From assembly GCA_028281365.1 (NCBI GenBank), contig JANQJZ010000040.1, positions 1-56,132 on the forward strand: a stretch of DNA of 56,132 nucleotides, given 5' to 3'. This document shows positions 3,036-45,181 of the stretch, one piece after another. Made by a program: the position numbers and the translations under genes. The notes under the pieces are model-generated. The model saw only the letters and a list, made by a program, of their open reading frames with translations, was not told the DNA's origin and made no database searches. Source of the stretch: Gammaproteobacteria bacterium. GTDB lineage: Bacteria > Pseudomonadota > Gammaproteobacteria > Eutrophobiales > Eutrophobiaceae. Numbering within the stretch: position 1 is the first letter of the stretch; each line of letters begins with the position of its first letter.

Positions 3036-4453
<1,418 letters not shown>

Positions 4454-4454
<1 letters not shown>

Positions 4455-5269
4455 TGATTGAAAACCAAACCAGCCAGGCTGATGTTGTTTCAATAGAGCA
4501 TCCCTATTATGAAATTCAGGGTAATGAAGTAACCCTGTTTGAGTCTGCCTATAAAAGTAACTTGCCAATGTTACTTAAAGGACCAACAGGTTGTGGTAAA
4601 ACCCGACTGGTACAATACATGGCTGCAAAACTTGGCAGGCCACTTTATACAGTAGCCTGTCATGATGACTTAACCGCATCCGATCTGGTTGGCCGGCATT
4701 TAATTGAAGGTGGCTCAACATACTGGCAAGACGGACCGTTAACCAAAGCCGTACGTACCGGTGGGATCTGTTATCTGGATGAAGTCGTAGAGGCGCGCAA
4801 GGATACAATTGTCGTGTTACATCCATTAACAGACGATCGCCGAACCTTATCCATAGAACGAACGGGCGAAGTGTTACATTGCCCGCCAGAATTTATGCTG
4901 GTGGTTTCCTATAATCCCGGTTATCAAAATTTACTCAAAGGATTAAAGCCTTCAACACGTCAACGTTTTGTAGCTGCAACATTTCAATATCCGAATACCG
5001 ATACTGAAACAAATATCCTGATAAACGAAACAGGAATAGACAAAATACATGCAGGACAGTTAGTTCGCCTGGCCAGCGGCTTACGCAAACTAAAAGATAT
5101 TGATCTGGAAGAAGCACCATCGACACGCTTACTTGTTTATGCATCAGAGTTAATATTGGCAGGTATCCCTGCAAGAGATGCATGTCTTGCGGCTATCGTT
5201 GAACCGCTTACGGATGATTCTGAAACGATGAAAGTTTTAATGGATGTAGTGGATGCTATCTTTGGCTGA
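4454..5269 (+). CDS. norQ: NorQ, MoxR-class AAA+ ATPase for NO reductase maturation
   Basis: NorQ works with NorD to activate cNor, probably by inserting the non-haem iron; this comes from the family, not from this sequence. The protein has 271 residues. The Walker A motif GPTGCGKT is at 43-50 and Walker B ICYLDEV at about 105-111. Sensor and arginine-finger regions follow (SYNPGYQ, KPSTRQRF). The start overlaps the norB stop and the stop overlaps the next start (TGATG), so the genes are translationally coupled in one operon. It belongs to the CbbQ/NirQ/NorQ branch rather than the MoxR at 21.1-22.1 kb. Confidence 0.95.
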
Positions 5270-33899: not shown

Positions 33900-35627
33900 C
33901 TAGTTTTTATCCTGTGACAAGGGTGAACTTAAGTAAGCAGCTGTCGTTTTGTAGTCGGGATTTATCGCCAGAAGGACATTCCTAGCCGATTCTGCTTGTT
34001 CAGATTCTCCAAGGATGTCCAATATTGCTATTTTAAAAATATGATTGGGAATGAAATTCTTATTTCGAATAATACCTCGATTATGATATTCGAGGGCTGT
34101 TATATGATCACCTCTGCTGTAATGAGCCAAACCTAACGCAAAAATATACGTGACGCTGTAATTAGGATTTATTTGAATGGCTTTTTCAATGGATTTTAGT
34201 GCCTCATCACCACGATTTATTACTGATAGAATTATCGATTGCCATAAATAACTATCAGCATAATTTGGATCGAGTTTAATTGCTTCGTCTATTTCATAAA
34301 GTGCCTCATCATATTGTTCTCTCCAACGATAGGCCCATCCAAGATTAGCGTGTGCGATGGGTAATAGCTCATCCAGTTCAATTGATCTTTTAGCTAAGTT
34401 AATACCTTGATCAACGGTATCTTCTATTGAGTTATTCAGGCCGGTGATGTACATATAAACAACAGCTCTTGATTTCCATGCGTAAGCTTCTGCGTAATTT
34501 TTGTCAGCTTCAATCGATTTACTAAAAAGATCAAGCGCATTTTCAATTCCTTCTGAATTAAACTGATAAAATTGACGTTGACCTTTTAATAAATAATCAT
34601 GAGCTTTTATATCATTCGTCCCGATATGACCAATCCGCCTTTCTTCAAAATCTGTTAATGTAACTTTCAAAGCATTAACAATACTTCTGGTTACGTCGTC
34701 TTGTACTGTAAAGATATCACCATATTCCCGATCATATCGATCTGCCCATAAATGAGTATCAGTTTTTGCGTCTATCAATTGCGCTGTAATTCTCATTTTA
34801 TCATCCGCATTTCTTACACTTCCTTCCAAAATGTATCTGGCTCCCAATTCATTACTAATTTCAGAAATGTTTTTTATTTTATTTTTATATACAAATGTCG
34901 AATGACGGGAGATCACAAAAAGCCACGATATTTTTGACAAATCCGTGATGATATCTTCAGTAATTCCATCACTAAAATATTCCTGACTTGGATCATTGCT
35001 CATATTATTAAATGGTAAAACTGCAATAGCAGGTTTTTCATTTAGTAAAATAAATTTACCCTGGTTATTTTGGTCTATTTTTGAAGTAATATTTTTTTCA
35101 TTAACAGAACTTGATCGAGGAAAGAAAGAATATAAACCATAGATTGCCAAGATTACGAGTAATGAAATAATAATTGAAGTGGAACTTATTGGAATTATCC
35201 ATTTACTATCTGAGGTGATGGACTCACTATAATTATTATTATCTCTACCAAACTCAGTATCATTTTTATCTTCTATTTCCTGTTTTTTACTGATCCGAAT
35301 TGCATACCCCCCTTTTGGTAATTCAATAATGATCGAATCATCTTTACCAGATTCCTGATAATAATCCTGAAGCTTAAATCGCAATCGCCCCGCTTCTACG
35401 CGCACCGTGGAATCGACAGCAGGATCATAGGTTTCATCTTTATCAAAGACGTCAATCCCAATGCTAAATTGGTTCAGGTTTTTAGAATCACCGGATAGCT
35501 TTGCTTCAACTATATATTTTAGAAATCGAGCCTGTTTTTCTGCCTGTCGAAACTGACTGCTTTGCAGGATTTTATCCAATTGAGTTCGTATGGTGACAAT
35601 CTCATTAGATGTTAATTTTTCGCTCAA
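33900..35627 (-). CDS. Membrane-anchored winged-helix, TolB-like, TPR regulator
   Basis: The 575-residue protein has four parts. Residues ~1-112 look like a divergent OmpR/CadC-type winged helix: QARFLKYIVEAKLSG, DPAVDSTVRVEAGRLRFKLQ as recognition region, and the wing IIIELPKGGYAIRI. One membrane helix follows at about 148-168. Then comes a TolB/FlgO-like periplasmic domain (AIAVLPFNNMSNDPSQEYFS, DGITEDIITDLSKISWLFVI, GARYILEGSVRNADDKMRIT), and from ~335 several TPR repeats (NYAEAYAWKSRAVVY, EQYDEALYEIDEAIKLDPNY). Such proteins are often labelled adenylate cyclase, but no cyclase domain is present. I infer a CadC-like signal-sensing regulator, divergent from the secreted-protein/hydrolase/efflux genes it may control. 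Confidence 0.85.
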   Translation of the reverse strand: MSEKLTSNEIVTIRTQLDKILQSSQFRQAEKQARFLKYIVEAKLSGDSKNLNQFSIGIDVFDKDETYDPAVDSTVRVEAGRLRFKLQDYYQESGKDDSIIIELPKGGYAIRISKKQEIEDKNDTEFGRDNNNYSESITSDSKWIIPISSTSIIISLLVILAIYGLYSFFPRSSSVNEKNITSKIDQNNQGKFILLNEKPAIAVLPFNNMSNDPSQEYFSDGITEDIITDLSKISWLFVISRHSTFVYKNKIKNISEISNELGARYILEGSVRNADDKMRITAQLIDAKTDTHLWADRYDREYGDIFTVQDDVTRSIVNALKVTLTDFEERRIGHIGTNDIKAHDYLLKGQRQFYQFNSEGIENALDLFSKSIEADKNYAEAYAWKSRAVVYMYITGLNNSIEDTVDQGINLAKRSIELDELLPIAHANLGWAYRWREQYDEALYEIDEAIKLDPNYADSYLWQSIILSVINRGDEALKSIEKAIQINPNYSVTYIFALGLAHYSRGDHITALEYHNRGIIRNKNFIPNHIFKIAILDILGESEQAESARNVLLAINPDYKTTAAYLSSPLSQDKN

Positions 35628-35722: not shown

Positions 35723-35738
35723 AATGTAACGTTACATT
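35723..35738. promoter_or_regulatory. Perfect 16-base palindrome, candidate operator
   Basis: AATGTAACGTTACATT lies midway between the divergent regulator (start 35627) and the small secreted gene (start 35881). A partial repeat, TTAACGTTACC, occurs at about 35784-35794 and TGTAAC at about 35743. Repetition of AACGTTAC in one divergent region suggests binding of a dimeric regulator, possibly the neighbouring winged-helix protein. Confidence 0.5.
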
Positions 35739-35880: not shown

Positions 35881-36165
35881 ATGAAAAATTACAGAAACAA
35901 TTTAGTTGGTCTTTTAACAGCAGTTGTACTGTCAACGAGTTCAAATGCTTTTGCTGACAGTATTCATAGTGTGCTGGATGAAAATCGAGTCAACGAAATA
36001 ACAACGGCTCAATCATCTAACAATTATCGCAATACGACTCCCCGGACACTCCAGGAGTATGTTGCGCAATTCCAAAACCAAAATGGCTCACCTGAAAAAG
36101 AGCCTACTCCAAATTATCAGGCTCAATGGACTGTCCCGGATTACATCAAGGCTGGCCGCATCTGA
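35881..36165 (+). CDS. Small secreted protein of unknown function
   Basis: The function is not recognised. The 94-residue product has a clear signal peptide (about 1-25, cut near AFA-DS). A polar mature chain of about 69 residues is rich in N, Q, T and P and has no cysteine: TLQEYVAQFQNQNGSPEKEP, then NYQAQWTVPDYIKAGRI. CAGGAGAAATTGAT is a strong ribosome site. It looks intrinsically disordered. It is the first gene after the candidate operator and is separated from the hydrolase by a strong hairpin at 36188-36217. Confidence 0.75.
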   Translation: MKNYRNNLVGLLTAVVLSTSSNAFADSIHSVLDENRVNEITTAQSSNNYRNTTPRTLQEYVAQFQNQNGSPEKEPTPNYQAQWTVPDYIKAGRI

Positions 36166-36187
36166 TGCTTTGGTATGACCAGAATAG

Positions 36188-36217
36188 GACTGATATCGAT
36201 TTCGATTGATATCAGTC
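36188..36217 (+). promoter_or_regulatory. Intergenic hairpin with TTCG tetraloop
   Basis: GACTGATATC (36188-36197) pairs with GATATCAGTC (36208-36217). Allowing one G-U pair, the stem extends three more pairs to a UUCG loop (36201-36204). No T-run follows, so it is not a standard terminator. It may stabilise or partly uncouple the messenger between the secreted-protein gene and the hydrolase gene. Confidence 0.6.
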
Positions 36218-36251
36218 TCTGGTTCAAAATGTATAAACCGAGGATTTAAAA

Positions 36252-37217
36252 ATGACGACATCATCTTTAATAATATTTAGCATCATATCCCTCATTGGTC
36301 TTGTTATCGTATCTTATATTATTGAGGCGCTTCGTTCCTCCCCGAAAGAGCCTGAAAAATTATCATGGTCGAATGATATAAGCACACATCATATTGAAGT
36401 AAACGGAAATAATCTTCGTTATATAAAAACCGGCAGTGGTGAACCGCTTTTATTACTCCACACTCTTAGAACACAGCTCGATATGTTTCAAAATGTTATT
36501 CCATGTTTATCAGAATACTTTACTGTTTATGCATTTGACTACCCGGGACACGGATACTCTGATATTCCTGAAGTCGAGTACACACCAGAATTCTTATTAA
36601 GTATTGTTGAAGGTTTTATTGAAAAAAATAATTTTGATAATGTCACCGTTGTCGGTGAATCTATTGGTGGCACCTTAGGATTACTTCTTGCTGCAAAGGC
36701 TAATCCGAAAGTCAAAAATGTTATTTCTATTAATCCATATGATTATGGAAATGGATATGGCATAACACGAGGGTCCTGGGTGGGTCGAATATTATTCTAT
36801 ATGAATAATATTCCTGTCTTTGGTGCAACAAATTGGCGTCTACGTATTTACCCCGCATTTCTACATATCATGCAAGGCGGTGTTGTAGATAAAGATGTAT
36901 TACCTTCAGATTTAATGCACGAAATAGATCGTGTTGGTAACCGTCCAAATCACTATCGTGCATTTATGTCCTTGATCCGTAATTTTCCTTTATGGGAAAA
37001 AGCAAAGCATGAATATTCAAAGATCAAAACACCAGTTTTATTAATCTATGGTGAGAATGACTGGTCGACCATTGAAGAACGTCTCGAAACTAAATCTAAA
37101 ATTCCTTTAGCTGAGTATAAAACTGTTCCCGACAGTGGACATTTCCTTTCACTTGAAGAACCCAGTTGGCTAATTGAATTAATTATCAAATTTATACGTA
37201 AAAATTCTAAAGCTTAA
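36252..37217 (+). CDS. Alpha/beta hydrolase with N-terminal membrane anchor
   Basis: The 321-residue protein starts with a membrane helix (about 5-26), followed by an alpha/beta-hydrolase domain. The oxyanion region is LLLLHTLRTQLDMF (about 72-85), where the usual HG is replaced by HT. The nucleophile elbow is VVGESIGGTLG (serine in G-E-S-I-G). Acid and histidine candidates lie in IYGENDWSTI and VPDSGHFLSLEEP. The substrate is unknown. It begins the run hydrolase, NmrA-like protein, membrane protein, efflux adaptor, efflux pump, with gaps of 22-70 bases. Confidence 0.88.
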   Translation: MTTSSLIIFSIISLIGLVIVSYIIEALRSSPKEPEKLSWSNDISTHHIEVNGNNLRYIKTGSGEPLLLLHTLRTQLDMFQNVIPCLSEYFTVYAFDYPGHGYSDIPEVEYTPEFLLSIVEGFIEKNNFDNVTVVGESIGGTLGLLLAAKANPKVKNVISINPYDYGNGYGITRGSWVGRILFYMNNIPVFGATNWRLRIYPAFLHIMQGGVVDKDVLPSDLMHEIDRVGNRPNHYRAFMSLIRNFPLWEKAKHEYSKIKTPVLLIYGENDWSTIEERLETKSKIPLAEYKTVPDSGHFLSLEEPSWLIELIIKFIRKNSKA

Positions 37218-37239
37218 TTTCTAAATTGGAGAAAATATT

Positions 37240-38364
37240 ATGTCAAAACCAAAAATATTAGTGACTGGTGCTGCAGGTCGAACAGGATCGGAAACGGTAT
37301 TGCAACTTCTAAAAAAAGGATATCCAGTTAAAGCATTCGTTAAAAAGAATGATACGAGAGCAGCAGCATTAAGAAACGCTGGCGCAGAAATACATATAGG
37401 AAACTTGTTCGATTTTCGTGACTTAAGTGTTGCGATGCATGATGTTCAACGTGCTTATCATTGCCCCCCATTCGCACCAAATTTGTTGGAAGGCAATATG
37501 GCATTTGCATTAGCGGCAAACGATGCTCGATTGGAAATCGTTGCGCTAATGAGTGGATGGAATGATCATGAATCTCATCCATCTATAGTAACGCGTCAGC
37601 ATTGGATAGCTAAACAACTTTATCGTTGGATGCCATCAGTAGACGTTATTCATATTAACCCAGGCTTATTTGCATTCGTTTATTTATTAGGGCTTCCTGC
37701 AATCGTCCATTTTGGACTATTGATGGGCCCATTTGGAAACGGAAAAAATGCACCACCTTCGAATGAAGATATTGCCAAGGTTGCTGCTAGCGTATTAACG
37801 AATCCAGGACCACATATTGGTAAAAGTTATCGCCCCACGGGTCCAGAATTATTATCACCAGATGAGATAGCTGATGTTCTCGGTAAAATTTTGAATCGAA
37901 AGGTTAAGTATCAGGATGCTTCATTTAATATGTTCATAAAAGCTGCAAAGGGTCTTGGCTTTCCAGATTTTGAAATATCCCAGATACGTTATTATGCTAA
38001 AGAACTACGTCATGGTGCCTATGAAATTGGTGCCCCCACTGCTCATGTTGAACATGTGACCGGACAGAAACCGGAATCATTCAATGAAATTGCTCGTCGA
38101 TACATTAATAATCCTTCGCTGATTCATCCCACTCTCAAAACAGGTAACAAACTCGATGCGTTGACCTTTATGTTTCGTATGCTTACCAGCCGTGTTGTTG
38201 ATTATGATCGATGGGAACAGGACCGCAATCATCCAATTTTAACTCAACCTCTACTTGCACATGAAAATAGAGATTGGTTAACAACAGCAAGAAATCAACA
38301 TGCACATATTTTAGAAAATATTCCAAAACAGAATATTGCATTAAAACACACAAAGACAGCTTGA
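37240..38364 (+). CDS. NmrA-like NAD(P)-binding protein
   Basis: The 374-residue protein has an atypical short-chain dehydrogenase fold. The dinucleotide motif VTGAAGRTGSETVLQLLKKG is at about 7-26. A basic residue follows strand two (AFVKKND), suggesting NADP(H), and the NmrA-type GAEIHIGNLFDFRDL follows. The catalytic YxxxK of classic dehydrogenases is not evident, so it may be a redox-sensing or isomerase-like member. The C-terminal ~80 residues are an unusual extension (LDALTFMFRMLTSRVVDYDR) without a clear match. GGAGAAAATATT precedes the ATG. Confidence 0.85.
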   Translation: MSKPKILVTGAAGRTGSETVLQLLKKGYPVKAFVKKNDTRAAALRNAGAEIHIGNLFDFRDLSVAMHDVQRAYHCPPFAPNLLEGNMAFALAANDARLEIVALMSGWNDHESHPSIVTRQHWIAKQLYRWMPSVDVIHINPGLFAFVYLLGLPAIVHFGLLMGPFGNGKNAPPSNEDIAKVAASVLTNPGPHIGKSYRPTGPELLSPDEIADVLGKILNRKVKYQDASFNMFIKAAKGLGFPDFEISQIRYYAKELRHGAYEIGAPTAHVEHVTGQKPESFNEIARRYINNPSLIHPTLKTGNKLDALTFMFRMLTSRVVDYDRWEQDRNHPILTQPLLAHENRDWLTTARNQHAHILENIPKQNIALKHTKTA

Positions 38365-38401
38365 TTAATTAACATATAAATATATTTTCGGAGGTTTCAT
38401 C

Positions 38402-38869
38402 ATGGATACGTTAACTATTTTTTTAACTCAACTAATTTTAAGTATTACTGTCTTTTCATTTATTGCCAAGTGGTATGTCTCACCATGGCTTTCAGGAAAA
38501 TTACTTAATGAATCTTTAATGATATTGATTTTTCCTCATGCGTTTAGACATGTTGGATTGTCTTTTTTAGTACCAGGTTTGGTAGATGAATCATTACCAA
38601 ATCAATTTGCATTTATGACGGCATATGGTGATTTTATTAGTGGTTTACTCGCTTTAGTGGCAATAGTTTTTCTAAGAAAAGGCTGGGCTTACGCTATCTC
38701 ACTTGTATGGGTATTCAATGTAATTGGTCTACTGGATCTGTTAAATGCATTAAGACAAGCTGATGCAGTCCCGTTCTTACATACGACCTGGTACATTCCA
38801 ACATTTTGGGTGCCGATATTACTTGTGACACATGTGATGATCTTTAGCTTGTTGCTGAAAAAAAGATAG
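38402..38869 (+). CDS. Four-helix membrane protein of unknown function
   Basis: The 155-residue protein has four predicted membrane helices (about 5-23, 58-68 with a weaker stretch, 78-118 as two, and 130-151). Polar features include FPHAFRHVGLSFLVPGLVDE and TTWYIPTFWVPILLVTHVMI. The function is not recognised. GGAGGTTTCATC before the ATG is a strong ribosome site. It sits between the NmrA-like gene and the efflux pair. Confidence 0.85.
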   Translation: MDTLTIFLTQLILSITVFSFIAKWYVSPWLSGKLLNESLMILIFPHAFRHVGLSFLVPGLVDESLPNQFAFMTAYGDFISGLLALVAIVFLRKGWAYAISLVWVFNVIGLLDLLNALRQADAVPFLHTTWYIPTFWVPILLVTHVMIFSLLLKKR

Positions 38870-38939
38870 TAATGCAGGGACCATACTATTAATAAACTTT
38901 TGTAATGAATTTTCTGAATAACACTTAATGGTGACGACG

Positions 38940-40481
38940 ATGAAGATTAACTCAATCATGATTATCATGACATTTTTATTAATCTCAGCCTGCAATAAAG
39001 AACCCGAGCCAGAGAAGAAAACATCAAATATACGCCCTGTTTCCGTCATTAGTCTCGAAGAGAATAATTTTTCAAGAGAAGTAAGTTTAACAGGCTCGGT
39101 GAATCTATATCGTCAGGAAAAAGTAGGCTTCGAAGTAACTGGTAGGATACTTGCCGTACAAGAGTTAGGTATAGAAGTTGAGGGTCCCGCCTATGATGAA
39201 AATAATACTCTTATAAGAGCAGGTGATGTTATTGCCTCGATGGACAATACTCGTTACCGGTTAATTGTTGAAGCACTTGAAGAGAAACTAAATGCTGCAT
39301 ACCAAACTTTAAAATCAACTGAAGCTACATTAACACTTGCGAAGCAGACTCTTGATAGAAGGCAAGGTATCTATGATCGAGGTGTTGGTGATAAACATTC
39401 TGTTGATACTGCGAAATCGCAACTGGATAGTACATTAGCACAAAAAGCACAAAATGAAGCAGTTATAAGAGAAATAACAGAAGATTTAAAACGTGCAAAA
39501 GAAGATCTTGAAGACACAAAGTTAAGGGCCCCCTTTACAGGAAGGATTACCGATATCCATGTAACTCAGGGAGCGGTAGTCGAAACCGGTACCCCGGTTG
39601 TCACACTGAGTTTAATGGATCCTATTCAGGTTCATGTAGAGGTATCTGCAGATGATGACCGACGAATACAAACAGGTGATCGCGCAATGTTATATCCAAG
39701 CGATCCCATTGACCCAAACAGAAATCCGATACCCGTGCATGCATTAGTTTACGAAAAAGGCGCTATTGCAGATCCAAATACGCGTACATTCAGAATAGAT
39801 TTAATGGCCAGGAATGAACGAAGGCGCATAGATCAAGTAGATGAAAATACTATTGATCTACCACTGGTATCCGAGTTTTTACCCGTAGTTAAACAATACC
39901 AGGGGGAAGAAGGTGATTTGTTTGTTCCCGTTGATAGTATTTATTTTGAAAATAGCAAGTCATATGTGATGACACTGCCAGGCGTCAGTTTTCATGCCGG
40001 TTCAAAAAGAAGTGCTATAGGAAAACATGTCCCTGAAAAAGTTGAGGTTAATTTAGGTAATGATTACTTCACAGTTATTAAATGGAACTTTAGAAATCTA
40101 ATTCAAAATAATGGATTAAAAGAAGGCGATTTTTTAGTAGTCGACCCCAGAAAGGAACACCTAAAAGGCCTTGCGATTGGCAGACCTCAGTGGTTATTGA
40201 GACCGGGAGATTTAGTACCAGTCAATTTTATACAGGATGTATCCAGGAAAGGATTCTATGTGCCTATCAATGCCATATCAAAAAAAGGTAACGAACATAT
40301 TGTCTACATTGTTATAAATAATAAAGCTCAATCAATTGAAGTCACACTACATGATACGTATCGAGAATTACGCCGAATAGAAGGAGAAGGTATAGAAACA
40401 GGAGCGCAGATTATTGTTAGCGGTATTCATTATATTTCAAATAACCAGAATGTTCGCATCGTGAAACAGGAAGAAATTTAA
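38940..40481 (+). CDS. RND efflux periplasmic adaptor lipoprotein
   Basis: This adaptor links an inner-membrane RND pump to an outer-membrane channel. From the ATG at 38940 it has 513 residues; another ATG at 38928 is possible but lacks a ribosome site. The signal ends in a lipobox (LLISAC), so it is lipid-anchored. The barrel-sandwich and hairpin domains follow: EVSLTGSVNLYRQEKVGFEV, a coiled-coil hairpin (about 105-190), and LRAPFTGRITDIHVTQGAVV. It is longer than AcrA-like adaptors (about 380-400), with extra sequence around 290-380. It ends 2 bases before the pump gene. No outer-membrane factor gene lies in the window. Confidence 0.92.
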   Translation: MKINSIMIIMTFLLISACNKEPEPEKKTSNIRPVSVISLEENNFSREVSLTGSVNLYRQEKVGFEVTGRILAVQELGIEVEGPAYDENNTLIRAGDVIASMDNTRYRLIVEALEEKLNAAYQTLKSTEATLTLAKQTLDRRQGIYDRGVGDKHSVDTAKSQLDSTLAQKAQNEAVIREITEDLKRAKEDLEDTKLRAPFTGRITDIHVTQGAVVETGTPVVTLSLMDPIQVHVEVSADDDRRIQTGDRAMLYPSDPIDPNRNPIPVHALVYEKGAIADPNTRTFRIDLMARNERRRIDQVDENTIDLPLVSEFLPVVKQYQGEEGDLFVPVDSIYFENSKSYVMTLPGVSFHAGSKRSAIGKHVPEKVEVNLGNDYFTVIKWNFRNLIQNNGLKEGDFLVVDPRKEHLKGLAIGRPQWLLRPGDLVPVNFIQDVSRKGFYVPINAISKKGNEHIVYIVINNKAQSIEVTLHDTYRELRRIEGEGIETGAQIIVSGIHYISNNQNVRIVKQEEI

Positions 40482-40483
40482 AA

Positions 40484-43400
40484 ATGAATTTACCTAAATT
40501 TGCACTCACGCATCAATCTGTAGTTTTAGCCTTTTTTAGCGTTTTTATTTTTGCAGGCTTATTTAACTTTACAGATATGTCTCGCAGAGAAGATCCGGAA
40601 ATTACTATTCGGGACACATTAGTACTTACTGCATGGCCTGGGGCAACGGCTGAAAAAGTAGAAGAATTAATCACTGACCCGCTAGAAAAAGTCATTGCAC
40701 AAATAACGGAAGTCGACATTATTGAGTCAAAATCAATGACAGGTTTATCCGTTATTCAAATAGCTGCCGAAGACAAAGTAACAGATACGGATCAGGTTTG
40801 GGATGAAATTCGCGCAAAAGTTACCTCAGTACAAGATACATTGCCATTAGGTAGTCAAACACCATTTGTAAATTCGGACTTTGGTGATGTCTATGAAATT
40901 GTACTGGCATTACATCAAATTCCAATTAATGGAAAAACAAAAATTGAACAACCTTACACATCACGTCAACTTGAAATCTACGCCGAGCATATTGAAGATG
41001 AAATTGAATTAATTAAATCTGTCGCAAAGGCAGAATTTTGGGGAGTCCAGGAAGAACGTATCTACGTTGAAATCGATAGTGCCGATTTAGCCAAAGTAAA
41101 TCTGAGTCTAGGCGAATTAAGACATGTCTTTGAAGCAAGAAATATTGTTCAACCAGGTGGCGAACTGGATACTGAGATCGCCCGTTATTCAATCAACCCG
41201 ACAGGAGAATTTACATCCACTAAACAAATGGGAGATCTGATTGTCCGTCGTGTCGACAATAACCTGCCAGTAAGACTTGGCGACTTACCAGTCAGTATCG
41301 AAAGACGATACGAAGAACCGATCAAGTCATTAACCAGATTTACGACGCCAGAATATCCAGGTAATAACACTTTGGTAATAGGCATATCAATGAAGAGCGG
41401 TCAAAACGTAACTGAAATGAGCCGTGATGTTAACCAGGTTCTTAATCGCTTAAAAGAAAGCTATTTGCCTCCCGATATTGAACTTGTAAGAGTTAATGAT
41501 TTACCGAGACAAGTTGACACTCGTATTAATGACTTCCAGGTCAATCTTCTACAAGGTATGACAATCGTTCTTTTATTAGCCTTGTTAACAATGGGTTGGC
41601 GACCTGCATTAATTATGGCCGGAGCAATACCTGTGTCGATGATATGCGCATTTGCAATCGTACGTCATTTAGGTATTGAACTGGAGCAATTTTCAATTGC
41701 ATCATTAATCATTGCATTAGGTATGGTAGTTGATAATGCAATTGTGGTATCCGAAAATTCGGTTCGATTGATTCGAGACGGTATGTCTAAAGTCGAGGCT
41801 ATTATTAAAGGCACACAGGATTTACTGATCCCGATTTTAACCTCAACCTTAACAACCATCTTTGCCTTTTTACCCATGTTGACCATGATTGGTAATGTTG
41901 GTGAATACGTTGGCAGCCTCCCTGTCGTGGTCCCTGCAACACTCATTGCGAGTTTTTTTGTTGCGATGCTGATTACACCAATAATGTGTCTTTGGTTATT
42001 AAAAGAAAAAGAAGCTGATGAAATTAATATAAAGAAAGCAGGCTTAAATAAAAAACCTGTCTATGATCGCATAATGAACTGGTCCTTAAATAACAAATTC
42101 AAAGTGATCTCAATATCAATGTTAATTTTTTTAACAAGCCTTATTATCGTGCCTATTATTGGAAATCAATTTTTTCCTTCCGGTTCACGTGATCAGTTTT
42201 TTATAAAAGTATGGCTACCGGAAGGTTCACCTATAGAAAAAACATCAGATGTTGCAAAACAAGTCGAAAAAATTCTAGTTGATACGAGCCCGGTCTTAAT
42301 TGAGGGACAAACAACCGAACGTTTATCGAATGCGATCACATTTGTTGGCTCCGGTAGTCCACGCTTAATGCTAACGCAGGAACCTGAATATGATTATCCC
42401 TATTATGCGTTTATTCTGGTTAATATGAATGACAATAGCTATACCGAACAATTTGCACGTGAAGTTAGAGAGAAACTATCTAATATCTATGAGGCGAGGA
42501 TTACTGTAGATTTATTTATGTTAGGACCTCCAATTCGAGATCCTATTGCTTTTAGATTAAGCGGACCGGATAGACAGTTGCTTCGTAGTAAGGCACAGAA
42601 CATGGTCGAAATCTTTAAAAGTGTACCTGGCACGATAGAACCTTACAGTAACTGGGGAGCACACGCGCATGGTATCGAATTAAAGATTGGTCCATATGCG
42701 GCAAATTTGGCAGGTGTAACAAATAATGATATTGCATTAACGACGAATTCCTTATTATCAGGTGCACATCTAACAAATTACAGGGAAGGTGATCACCTTG
42801 TTCCGATAATGTTAAGGACAACAAGAGAAAAACGAGAGGACTTAAATGATTTGTCGGGTATTTATGTTAATGGTTCGGATGGAAAAGTCCCACTTGCATC
42901 TGTTGCCGAGGTTATCACAGATTGGAAACCCGCAGTCATTGCAAGACGAAACAATATTCCTACTGTAACAGTTGGGGCAAGGGTAGAAGAAGGATTATTA
43001 GCAAATAAAGTCGCAAATGATATAAAAGAAAAACTTAATGAAATGATGGAATCATTACCACCAGGATATCATTTAGAACAAGGTGGAGAGCATGAAGAAA
43101 CGATTAAAGCACAATCACAAGTCGTTGTTGCTGTCGGACTGGCAATGATCTTAATCATACTCGTCCTAGTGACACAATATAATTCATTCCTAAAACCTCT
43201 TGTGATCTTCTTCAGTATCCCCTTTGCCCTGGTGGGCGTGCTTATAGGATTATTAACAACAGGTTGGGCCCTGGGTTTTATGGCAAACCTCGGTATTTTG
43301 TCTTTAATTGGTATCGTCATTAATAATGCAATTGTGCTGATAGATTTTATCCAGACACGTGTTGCTGAAGGGCAACCAGTAAGAGAAGCTGTAGTCGAAT

Positions 43401-43609
43401 CAGGTAGATTACGAATGAGACCCATTATATTAACAAGTTTAACTACAATAGGTGGGTTGTTACCTCTTTCATTATTTGGTGGTGCGCTATGGTCTCCAAT
43501 GACTAATGGAATGATCTTTGGATTACTTTTTTCTACCGTACTTACGTTAATAATCATTCCTACATTATATGTATTGTTTGTAGAAAAACTGGGAATGAGC
43601 CCGAATTAA
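40484..43609 (+). CDS. RND efflux permease
   Basis: This inner-membrane proton-driven exporter has 1041 residues, the normal AcrB-like length, with 12 membrane helices and two large periplasmic loops. Motifs include the opening FALTHQSVVLAFFSVFIFAG, the TM4 region ALGMVVDNAIVVSENSVRLI (one acidic residue, D-N, where AcrB has D-D) and LSLIGIVINNAIVLIDFIQT in the second half. The D-N form is known in other subfamilies such as SwrC-like pumps. Substrates cannot be predicted; the lack of a heavy-metal signature argues against metal export. The divergent TetR downstream may or may not control it. Confidence 0.95.
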   Translation: MNLPKFALTHQSVVLAFFSVFIFAGLFNFTDMSRREDPEITIRDTLVLTAWPGATAEKVEELITDPLEKVIAQITEVDIIESKSMTGLSVIQIAAEDKVTDTDQVWDEIRAKVTSVQDTLPLGSQTPFVNSDFGDVYEIVLALHQIPINGKTKIEQPYTSRQLEIYAEHIEDEIELIKSVAKAEFWGVQEERIYVEIDSADLAKVNLSLGELRHVFEARNIVQPGGELDTEIARYSINPTGEFTSTKQMGDLIVRRVDNNLPVRLGDLPVSIERRYEEPIKSLTRFTTPEYPGNNTLVIGISMKSGQNVTEMSRDVNQVLNRLKESYLPPDIELVRVNDLPRQVDTRINDFQVNLLQGMTIVLLLALLTMGWRPALIMAGAIPVSMICAFAIVRHLGIELEQFSIASLIIALGMVVDNAIVVSENSVRLIRDGMSKVEAIIKGTQDLLIPILTSTLTTIFAFLPMLTMIGNVGEYVGSLPVVVPATLIASFFVAMLITPIMCLWLLKEKEADEINIKKAGLNKKPVYDRIMNWSLNNKFKVISISMLIFLTSLIIVPIIGNQFFPSGSRDQFFIKVWLPEGSPIEKTSDVAKQVEKILVDTSPVLIEGQTTERLSNAITFVGSGSPRLMLTQEPEYDYPYYAFILVNMNDNSYTEQFAREVREKLSNIYEARITVDLFMLGPPIRDPIAFRLSGPDRQLLRSKAQNMVEIFKSVPGTIEPYSNWGAHAHGIELKIGPYAANLAGVTNNDIALTTNSLLSGAHLTNYREGDHLVPIMLRTTREKREDLNDLSGIYVNGSDGKVPLASVAEVITDWKPAVIARRNNIPTVTVGARVEEGLLANKVANDIKEKLNEMMESLPPGYHLEQGGEHEETIKAQSQVVVAVGLAMILIILVLVTQYNSFLKPLVIFFSIPFALVGVLIGLLTTGWALGFMANLGILSLIGIVINNAIVLIDFIQTRVAEGQPVREAVVESGRLRMRPIILTSLTTIGGLLPLSLFGGALWSPMTNGMIFGLLFSTVLTLIIIPTLYVLFVEKLGMSPN

Positions 43610-43673: not shown

Positions 43674-44237
43674 TTACTTACTGTGTAGATTTAGAAGATC
43701 TATTGCGGACGCCTTTGCATCTTTAGCTGGGTTTTCAGTATGCCCTAAATGAGCCGTAACGATTGCACCTTCTTTTAATAGTAATAATTGTCGTGCAAGG
43801 ACATCAGGGTTTGTTAGTCCGGCATTCTCAGCCAACTGTGTAATATGCCTTTCAAGCATTCGCTTATGATCTGCTGACTGTTTGTGTATTGGGTGGCTAG
43901 CCTCCTGATATTCAGATGATGCTTTGATGAACATGCATCCTTTGTAGTCAATTTCATTAAACCATTCTTCCAGTGCATCAAACATCGCAATCAATTGCTG
44001 TCGTGGCGAATCGGCCAACTCTTCCATCCGACGATACAGCCAATTTCGAAAATGTTCATCGCGTAGACGCAGCACAGCAAGAATTAAGTCCTCCTTTGTT
44101 CGAAAGTGTTTGTAGATAGAAGTCTTTGAGATACCAGTCTCGGTCGCAAGCATGTCCATGCCTGTCGCGTGAAACCCATATTGATAAAACACCTTCAATG
44201 CTTTTTGAACTAGCTCGTCTCGTTTAGTTGGTCGCAT
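43674..44237 (-). CDS. TetR family regulator
   Basis: From the ATG at 44237 it has 187 residues. The N-terminal helix-turn-helix is TGMDMLATETGISKTSIYKH (about 25-44), followed by FRTKEDLILAVLR. The C-terminal ligand domain (EEWFNEIDYKGCMFIKASSE) resembles TetR_C-type sensors with one conspicuous cysteine. The in-frame ATG at 44267 lies inside an operator half and is rejected. Three copies of an (A)CCGATCGGT-type operator lie in the shared region with the cysteine hydrolase gene, so it should repress both itself and that gene. Confidence 0.92.
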   Translation of the reverse strand: MRPTKRDELVQKALKVFYQYGFHATGMDMLATETGISKTSIYKHFRTKEDLILAVLRLRDEHFRNWLYRRMEELADSPRQQLIAMFDALEEWFNEIDYKGCMFIKASSEYQEASHPIHKQSADHKRMLERHITQLAENAGLTNPDVLARQLLLLKEGAIVTAHLGHTENPAKDAKASAIDLLNLHSK

Positions 44238-44250
44238 AATTTGATATAAA

Positions 44251-44266
44251 TTAACTGATCGGTACA
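44251..44266 (-). promoter_or_regulatory. TetR operator copy at the tetR promoter
   Basis: TTAACTGATCGGTACA matches the perfect operator at 44412-44429 in its core (GATCGGTA) and lies 14 bases before the tetR start codon. It suggests autorepression. Confidence 0.65.
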
Positions 44267-44371
44267 TATTATATCGAAAAAAACATTATAAGTAAAAAAT
44301 AATAATATTAATAAAAACAATAATATAAAAATTATAATTCTTAAGACTATATATATTTCGCCATTATTACC

Positions 44372-44401: not shown

Positions 44402-44411
44402 TATTTATAAG

Positions 44412-44429
44412 GTTTACCGATCGGTAAAC
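44412..44429. promoter_or_regulatory. Perfect TetR operator palindrome
   Basis: GTTTACCGATCGGTAAAC is an 18-base perfect palindrome just past the transcription start predicted for the cysteine hydrolase gene. It is the best of three copies in this intergenic region. Confidence 0.8.
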
Positions 44430-44479
44430 TATATAGAATTTTACCGCGCCCTGCGCATTAACAGACGGAGAGAGTAATT

Positions 44480-45181
44480 ATGAATAATAATGAAGACAAA
44501 AGTGGTTTACCTGATACAGGTTTTGAAATTGTATTGAGTCGAACAGCATTACTTGTCACCGATCCACAAAACGATTTTTTAAGTCCCGATGGTGTCTCCT
44601 GGGGTGTTGTTGGGAAAAACATCGAAGCGAACGGTACGGTTGAAAATATTGATCAACTATTCGCTACGGCTAAAGAAGTAGAGATGCAAGTATTTATTTC
44701 TCCGCATTATTACTACCCACATGATCACGGTTGGCAGTTCGAGGGTGCTTTAGAAAAATTAATGCACAATATAGGTATGTTTAACCGCAAAGGCCCTCTT
44801 TCCACAACTAATTTTGAAGGGTCTGGAGCTGACTGGCTCGAACAATATAAGAAGTATATTAATGATGAAAAAACTATTGTTACCAACCCACATAAAGTAT
44901 TTGGCCCCGAAACTAATGACTTGGTTTTACAATTGCGTAAACAAGGGATCGACAAAGTCATAATTGCAGGAATGTCTGCCAATCTTTGTACAGAATCTCA
45001 CATGCGTGAATTGATTGAGCAAGGTTTTGAGGTGATGGTCGTTACTGATGCCACTGCTGCTGCACAAGTACCTGGTTATGATGGGTATGAAGCAGCGTTG
45101 ACTAACTTTCGAATGATCGCAAGTCATATTGCTGATACACAATCGACCATCACTGCTATGAAAGAAGCTGCTACCAAATGA
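44480..45181 (+). CDS. Isochorismatase-family cysteine hydrolase
   Basis: The family hydrolyses amides or vinyl ethers through an Asp-Lys-Cys triad. The 233-residue protein has D28 (LLVTDPQNDF), K139 (NPHKVFGPE) and C170 (GMSANLCTES), with the cis-peptide region before the cysteine. The substrate is not evident. Family members include nicotinamidase, N-carbamoylsarcosine amidase and phenazine enzymes; the TetR/operator arrangement suggests induction by a small toxic or signalling compound. CGGAGAGAGTAATT precedes the ATG. DUF1348 follows after 97 bases with a hairpin between. Confidence 0.93.
   Translation: MNNNEDKSGLPDTGFEIVLSRTALLVTDPQNDFLSPDGVSWGVVGKNIEANGTVENIDQLFATAKEVEMQVFISPHYYYPHDHGWQFEGALEKLMHNIGMFNRKGPLSTTNFEGSGADWLEQYKKYINDEKTIVTNPHKVFGPETNDLVLQLRKQGIDKVIIAGMSANLCTESHMRELIEQGFEVMVVTDATAAAQVPGYDGYEAALTNFRMIASHIADTQSTITAMKEAATK

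Follow-up and report, generated by a model that had tools for sequence, protein, structure and literature searches.

Results

The window, by which we mean the whole 56,132-nucleotide stretch of DNA analysed, lies on contig C76 of the 2.2-Mb draft genome G000 and carries, between positions 35881 and 43609, six intact open reading frames on the forward strand that encode, in order, a small secreted protein (SEC), a hydrolase (HYD), an NmrA-like protein (NMR), a membrane protein (MEM), a periplasmic adaptor (MFP) and an RND pump (RND) (Table 1). The intergenic gaps measure 86 bp (SEC-HYD), 22 bp (HYD-NMR), 37 bp (NMR-MEM), 58 bp (MEM-MFP) and 2 bp (MFP-RND), and 253 bp separate SEC from the divergent gene for a putative regulator (REG), which bears out a sequence-only reading of this DNA that had described six genes running in one direction with short gaps behind a divergent regulator. 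From their spacing, the six genes are likely to be expressed as one transcript; a sigma-70 promoter scan of the region gave hits at chance level, and an Rfam search of it returned no family. Searches against Pfam and NCBIfam assigned HYD to Abhydrolase_1, NMR to NmrA, MFP to the RND adaptors and RND to ACR_tran, and matched neither SEC nor MEM to any family.

Table 1. Coordinates of the regulator, the six-gene run and the associated sequence elements in the window
Feature	Position	Strand	Description
REG	33900..35627	-	575-aa putative regulator: N-terminal domain of ~118 aa, one transmembrane (TM) helix (144-162), TolB/FlgO-like segment, TPR repeats
Candidate operator	35724..35737		Exact 14-bp palindrome ATGTAACGTTACAT between REG and SEC
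SEC	35881..36165	+	94-aa small secreted protein, signal-peptide-like N-terminus, no known family
Hairpin	36188..36217	+	13-bp stem with one G-U pair, UUCG loop, no U-run; between SEC and HYD
HYD	36252..37217	+	Membrane-anchored alpha/beta hydrolase; Pfam Abhydrolase_1, 5e-28
NMR	37240..38364	+	NmrA-like, NAD(P)-binding protein with the C-terminal extension of its subfamily; Pfam NmrA, 2.6e-14
MEM	38402..38869	+	155-aa membrane protein with about five TM helices and no match in Pfam; recurs downstream of NMR
MFP	38928..40481	+	517-aa lipoprotein-type periplasmic adaptor, lipobox-like start; NCBIfam RND_mfp above cut-off
RND	40484..43609	+	1041-aa RND pump; Pfam ACR_tran, 4e-164

The run stops at a convergent TetR-type gene (43674-44267), beyond which lie an isochorismatase-family gene (ISO, 44480-45181) and a DUF1348 gene. 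Since a 68% identical relative of ISO (4330-5142 of locus L110) stands directly upstream of an NMR relative, with an MMPL-type and a DUF1302-like gene further upstream, the TetR, ISO and DUF1348 genes may be part of a wider locus. A palindrome containing TTTACCGATCGGTAAA (44406-44435) sits between the TetR-type and ISO genes and is a candidate operator for TetR in a distinct, adjacent unit.

The divergent intergenic region holds an exact palindrome that is new in this analysis. Its 12-bp core, TGTAACGTTACA, occurs once in the 2.2-Mb genome, where base composition predicts about 0.24 copies, and once in a related genome, G031, whose REG and NMR orthologues (51% and 47% identical) are likewise divergent neighbours. 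Both sites lie in the intergenic region of REG, at 96 bp from the gene in G000 and 95 bp in G031. Around the site 18 of 19 bases are identical, while the two intergenic regions otherwise align poorly: the site is their best local alignment, with a score of 33 where the best of 500 shuffles reached 28, and the second-longest stretch common to them spans only 8 bases. The palindrome is absent at the more distant REG homologues examined. A further match to TGTAACGTTACA, in genome G069, was rejected as chance, being inside a coding frame in a genome that has no REG match.

Pfam and PDB profile searches gave no placement for the N-terminal domain of REG, and its AlphaFold model (pLDDT 69) yielded no meaningful fold match. 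Because the fold of this domain is unplaced, we infer DNA binding by REG; to judge from the position of the candidate site, REG would bind the palindrome. The G031 orthologue has no TM helix. The orthologous regulators at L025:2942-4555 and at window positions 33900-35627, which share the candidate operator, differ in that one has a TM helix and the other does not. Elsewhere, the same type of N-terminal domain occurs within a 1031-aa protein (L181:4745-7840) whose N-terminus resembles a Ser/Thr kinase.

SEC, a small protein with a signal-peptide-like start, leads the run; a small secreted protein in this place had been read from the letters. A search of 58 relatives gave one weak match, and a second relative was found beside a REG homologue; the two proteins, in G008 and G025, are about 33% identical to SEC, and it is the one in G025 that adjoins the REG homologue. 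In related genomes, small secreted protein genes divergent from REG homologues are also present at L175:6375-6797, L176:5911-6363 and L181:4204-4611, two of them EF-hand-like. Between SEC and HYD lies a hairpin that, like the palindrome, is absent from the earlier reading. Its fold z-score is -5.0, none of 200 shuffles was equally stable, and the window contains one copy of it; it is possibly a processing or stabilising element, and could uncouple the expression of SEC from that of the downstream genes.

HYD has one N-terminal TM helix (residues 6-24). In an alignment of 12 proteins its Ser137, Asp270 and His297 are conserved, which we take for the catalytic triad, and the motif HTxRTQ replaces the usual HGxP. 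Enol-lactonase and meta-cleavage hydrolase models give scores for HYD, with every equivalog match below cut-off. NMR passes the Pfam NmrA gathering score (54 bits against 27) over residues 3-256 of 374, and solved relatives of it include YtfG, triphenylmethane reductase and SimC7; it is a putative NAD(P)H-dependent reductase. Both proteins had been singled out as odd, and in both cases the feature is there but the oddity is not: the anchor of HYD recurs among its family relatives, and the C-terminal extension of NMR beyond the NmrA match is a trait of the subfamily, as every one of the 81 aligned proteins (342-428 aa) has it up to about residue 350 and at least 95% of them conserve W346. NMR also has an invariant APPSNED segment.

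MEM has a low-confidence AlphaFold model (pLDDT 64) and no meaningful fold match. Homologues of it lie downstream of NMR on the same strand, mostly directly adjacent, in 9 of 80 NMR loci and in Paraburkholderia PGU19, the records being labelled Burkholderiaceae, Acetobacteraceae, Acidobacteriaceae, Pleurocapsa, Planctomycetota and one uncultured bacterium. Since MEM homologues occur away from NMR in 13 other genomes, the pairing is facultative. Acidobacteriaceae KBS 96 (L126:4458-8692) has a tandem pair of NMR-type genes with a MEM gene on each flank.

The pump has the makeup of an HAE-1-type RND system, a full-length ACR_tran permease with an adjacent periplasmic adaptor, and its nearest solved sequences are MexK (7e-141) and TriC (1e-136). 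The adaptor is indeed unusually long, as had been noted: an extra segment occupies about residues 300-437, ahead of a C-terminal domain aligned at 438-513, and is conserved in the closest relative, a 55% identical protein in G047 that is longer still (569 aa). A tandem membrane-proximal domain suspected by eye in MFP was unsupported by a profile comparison of the two segments. By motif comparison, RND lacks the D407/D408/K940 proton relay of AcrB (PMC8277102), with D417/N418 and N947 at the likely positions; MexK has the DD pair and lacks the relay Lys in the alignment. As RND pumps vary at the relay positions, these residues leave activity of RND possible. No outer-membrane channel gene is among the six, and OEP genes are found on contigs C38, C17, C57 and C30 of the genome.

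Gene order was compared at several depths. We queried 53 genomes of the same family with NMR, MEM, RND, HYD and the N-terminal domain of REG, and none of them has the full gene set. MFP was sought in 369 genomes of the class and 398 of the phylum, RND in the 369 and MEM in the 398; under strict thresholds and with few candidates scored per genome, so that cases can be missed, only G047 besides the window was found to have MFP or RND, as orthologues (55% and 69% identical) that stand alone. In addition, 80 loci of NMR relatives were mapped after a profile scan in a set of 84,980 species genomes, an earlier single-sequence scan having found none. The six-gene order was found in none of these genomes and loci, and no description of an NmrA-RND operon was found in the literature searched; the assertion that no described system has this order thus holds as far as the search reached.

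Co-occurrence elsewhere is lacking for the six genes as a whole but not for parts of them: the pairs regulator-NMR, HYD-NMR, NMR-MEM and MFP-RND are each seen elsewhere without the remaining genes. In G069 a HYD relative (65% identical) precedes NMR downstream of a MarR-like gene; the contig there, like that in G031, ends in or just after NMR. In a Hyphomicrobium MAG, HYD and NMR fall within one gene run, and two Marinicaulis MAG loci have a REG homologue divergent from an MFP-RND set that is followed by NMR. The locus is a mosaic of separable gene pairs: its parts are modules that move independently, so that the six do not form a conserved unit.

NMR relatives are sometimes accompanied by an alpha/beta hydrolase, an exporter or both. 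Their other neighbours, given here as recurrences and not as statistics and named in part from sequence by eye, include TetR, HxlR and MarR regulators, beta-carbonic-anhydrase-like, DUF1330, SDR and MAPEG proteins, and a DHA2-like MFS exporter followed by an MsrB-like protein. The series NMR-SDR-MFS-MsrB is seen at L084, L085, L088 and L091; these MAGs carry the labels Dadabacteria, Deltaproteobacteria and Thermodesulfobacteriota, and wherever the contig extends far enough a MarR-like gene precedes NMR. Of the NMR relatives found, the closest (66% identical; L070, MAG PMV_7.24) is followed by an alpha/beta hydrolase lipoprotein and an MMPL-type exporter and has a MarR-like gene upstream.

Discussion

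We consider it somewhat more probable than the contrary that the locus is a locally regulated detoxification operon that modifies and expels a compound. REG, transcribed divergently, would control the operon through ATGTAACGTTACAT in response to a toxic compound that is probably hydrophobic or electrophilic; anchored HYD, as a serine hydrolase, and NMR, as an NAD(P)H-dependent reductase, would modify it at the inner membrane, perhaps together with MEM; and MFP-RND would expel the compound or its products through an outer-membrane channel whose gene lies elsewhere in the genome. We favour this explanation because the palindrome at the REG site is conserved and because NMR genes elsewhere stand beside TetR, HxlR and MarR genes and sometimes beside exporters. 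The tight packing of the genes on one strand speaks for it, as do the HYD-NMR pair in G069, the HYD-NMR run in the Hyphomicrobium MAG, the run of three protein classes at L070, the Marinicaulis loci that combine REG, MFP-RND and NMR, the kinship of the pump to MexK and TriC and the outer-membrane channel genes on other contigs. Against it count that SEC has no role in such a scheme, that the SEC-HYD hairpin may separate expression and that the fold of the N-terminal domain of REG is unplaced. Moreover, as the only close MFP-RND orthologue pair stands alone, the pump may not share the substrate of the enzymes.

This last point also bears on the explanation that there are two independent units: HYD, NMR and MEM as an inducible stress cassette that REG controls, and a pump, acquired separately, that follows it by chance. 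The solitary pair in G047 fits such a history, as do the lack of this pump at NMR loci elsewhere and the 58-bp gap between MEM and MFP, but it must contend with six genes closely spaced on one strand and with exporters that recur beside NMR, at L070 and at the Dadabacteria-type loci, and we judge it unlikely. The remaining explanations keep the enzymes and the pump together and assign them other tasks. NMR and HYD might make or mature a metabolite, a signal or a toxin, that RND exports with SEC as an accessory: the relatives of NMR include the polyketide ketoreductase SimC7, and overexpression of MexJK has been associated with reduced output of quorum-sensing signals (PMC9323910). Yet none of the six genes has a Pfam or NCBIfam match to a scaffold-building enzyme, and the neighbours of NMR relatives are of stress type rather than biosynthetic, so that we think this improbable. 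We regard as likewise improbable a catabolic unit in which HYD and NMR degrade an aromatic compound or an ester while the pump relieves toxicity; the hydrolase models against which HYD scores, the nearby ISO and DUF1348 genes and the ISO relative adjoining NMR in L110 are in keeping with it, but the equivalog matches all fall below cut-off, and Pfam and NCBIfam place neither a ring-cleavage oxygenase nor an uptake gene among the six.

The sequence-only reading had suggested that the genes make or modify a small molecule and export it, or sense and expel one. Of this, a system that senses and modifies or expels agrees best with the stress-type neighbours of NMR, the kinship of the pump to MexK and TriC and the conserved palindrome; the separate modules of which the locus is made count against the implied novelty. 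The gene order and the long adaptor are unusual, and the principle of sensing, modifying and expelling is familiar rather than new. A modify-and-expel operon assembled from separable modules is the simplest reading, with a function that is predicted throughout. The REG family is unusual too, and we tentatively raise the possibility that it is an undescribed family of one-component regulators, with a non-Pfam N-terminal DNA-binding domain and a TolB/TPR sensor, that exists in anchored and soluble forms, uses the same palindrome in both and controls a reductase-hydrolase-RND detoxification operon.

If the favoured explanation is true, the genes of an efflux pump are linked here to those of enzymes that may alter its cargo before export, and an exact candidate operator is on hand for an uncharacterised regulator family. 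The NMR-MEM and HYD-NMR pairs may be useful for assigning function to nameless protein families.

Several known systems resemble parts of the locus. The L070 run shares with it a reductase-like protein, an anchored hydrolase and an RND-superfamily exporter, but its hydrolase and exporter are non-orthologous and its upstream regulator is of the MarR type. YtfG, triphenylmethane reductase and SimC7 have the Rossmann domain of NMR, with about 240 residues aligned, to which NMR adds its C-terminal extension and the APPSNED segment. Regulators of the CadC/ToxR type are built like REG, with an N-terminal domain, a single TM helix between the N- and C-terminal domains and a large, sensor-like C-terminal part; REG differs in that its N-terminal domain has no OmpR-type winged-helix match in Pfam or PDB and in having a soluble orthologue. 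Among pumps, TriABC-OpmH contains the next-best solved match, TriC, but TriABC, which exports triclosan, has two adaptors (PMC8277102) and this locus one adaptor gene. MexJK of Pseudomonas aeruginosa, which has an effect on quorum sensing and is able to extrude triclosan, erythromycin and tetracycline (PMC9323910), is similar in layout, with a single adaptor gene, no adjoining outer-membrane channel gene and, in MexK, the best solved match. The relationship is distant, however: the window's adaptor is much longer, its operon adds enzymes, and its divergent regulator is REG, with TPR and TolB-like parts, rather than a TetR repressor such as MexL.
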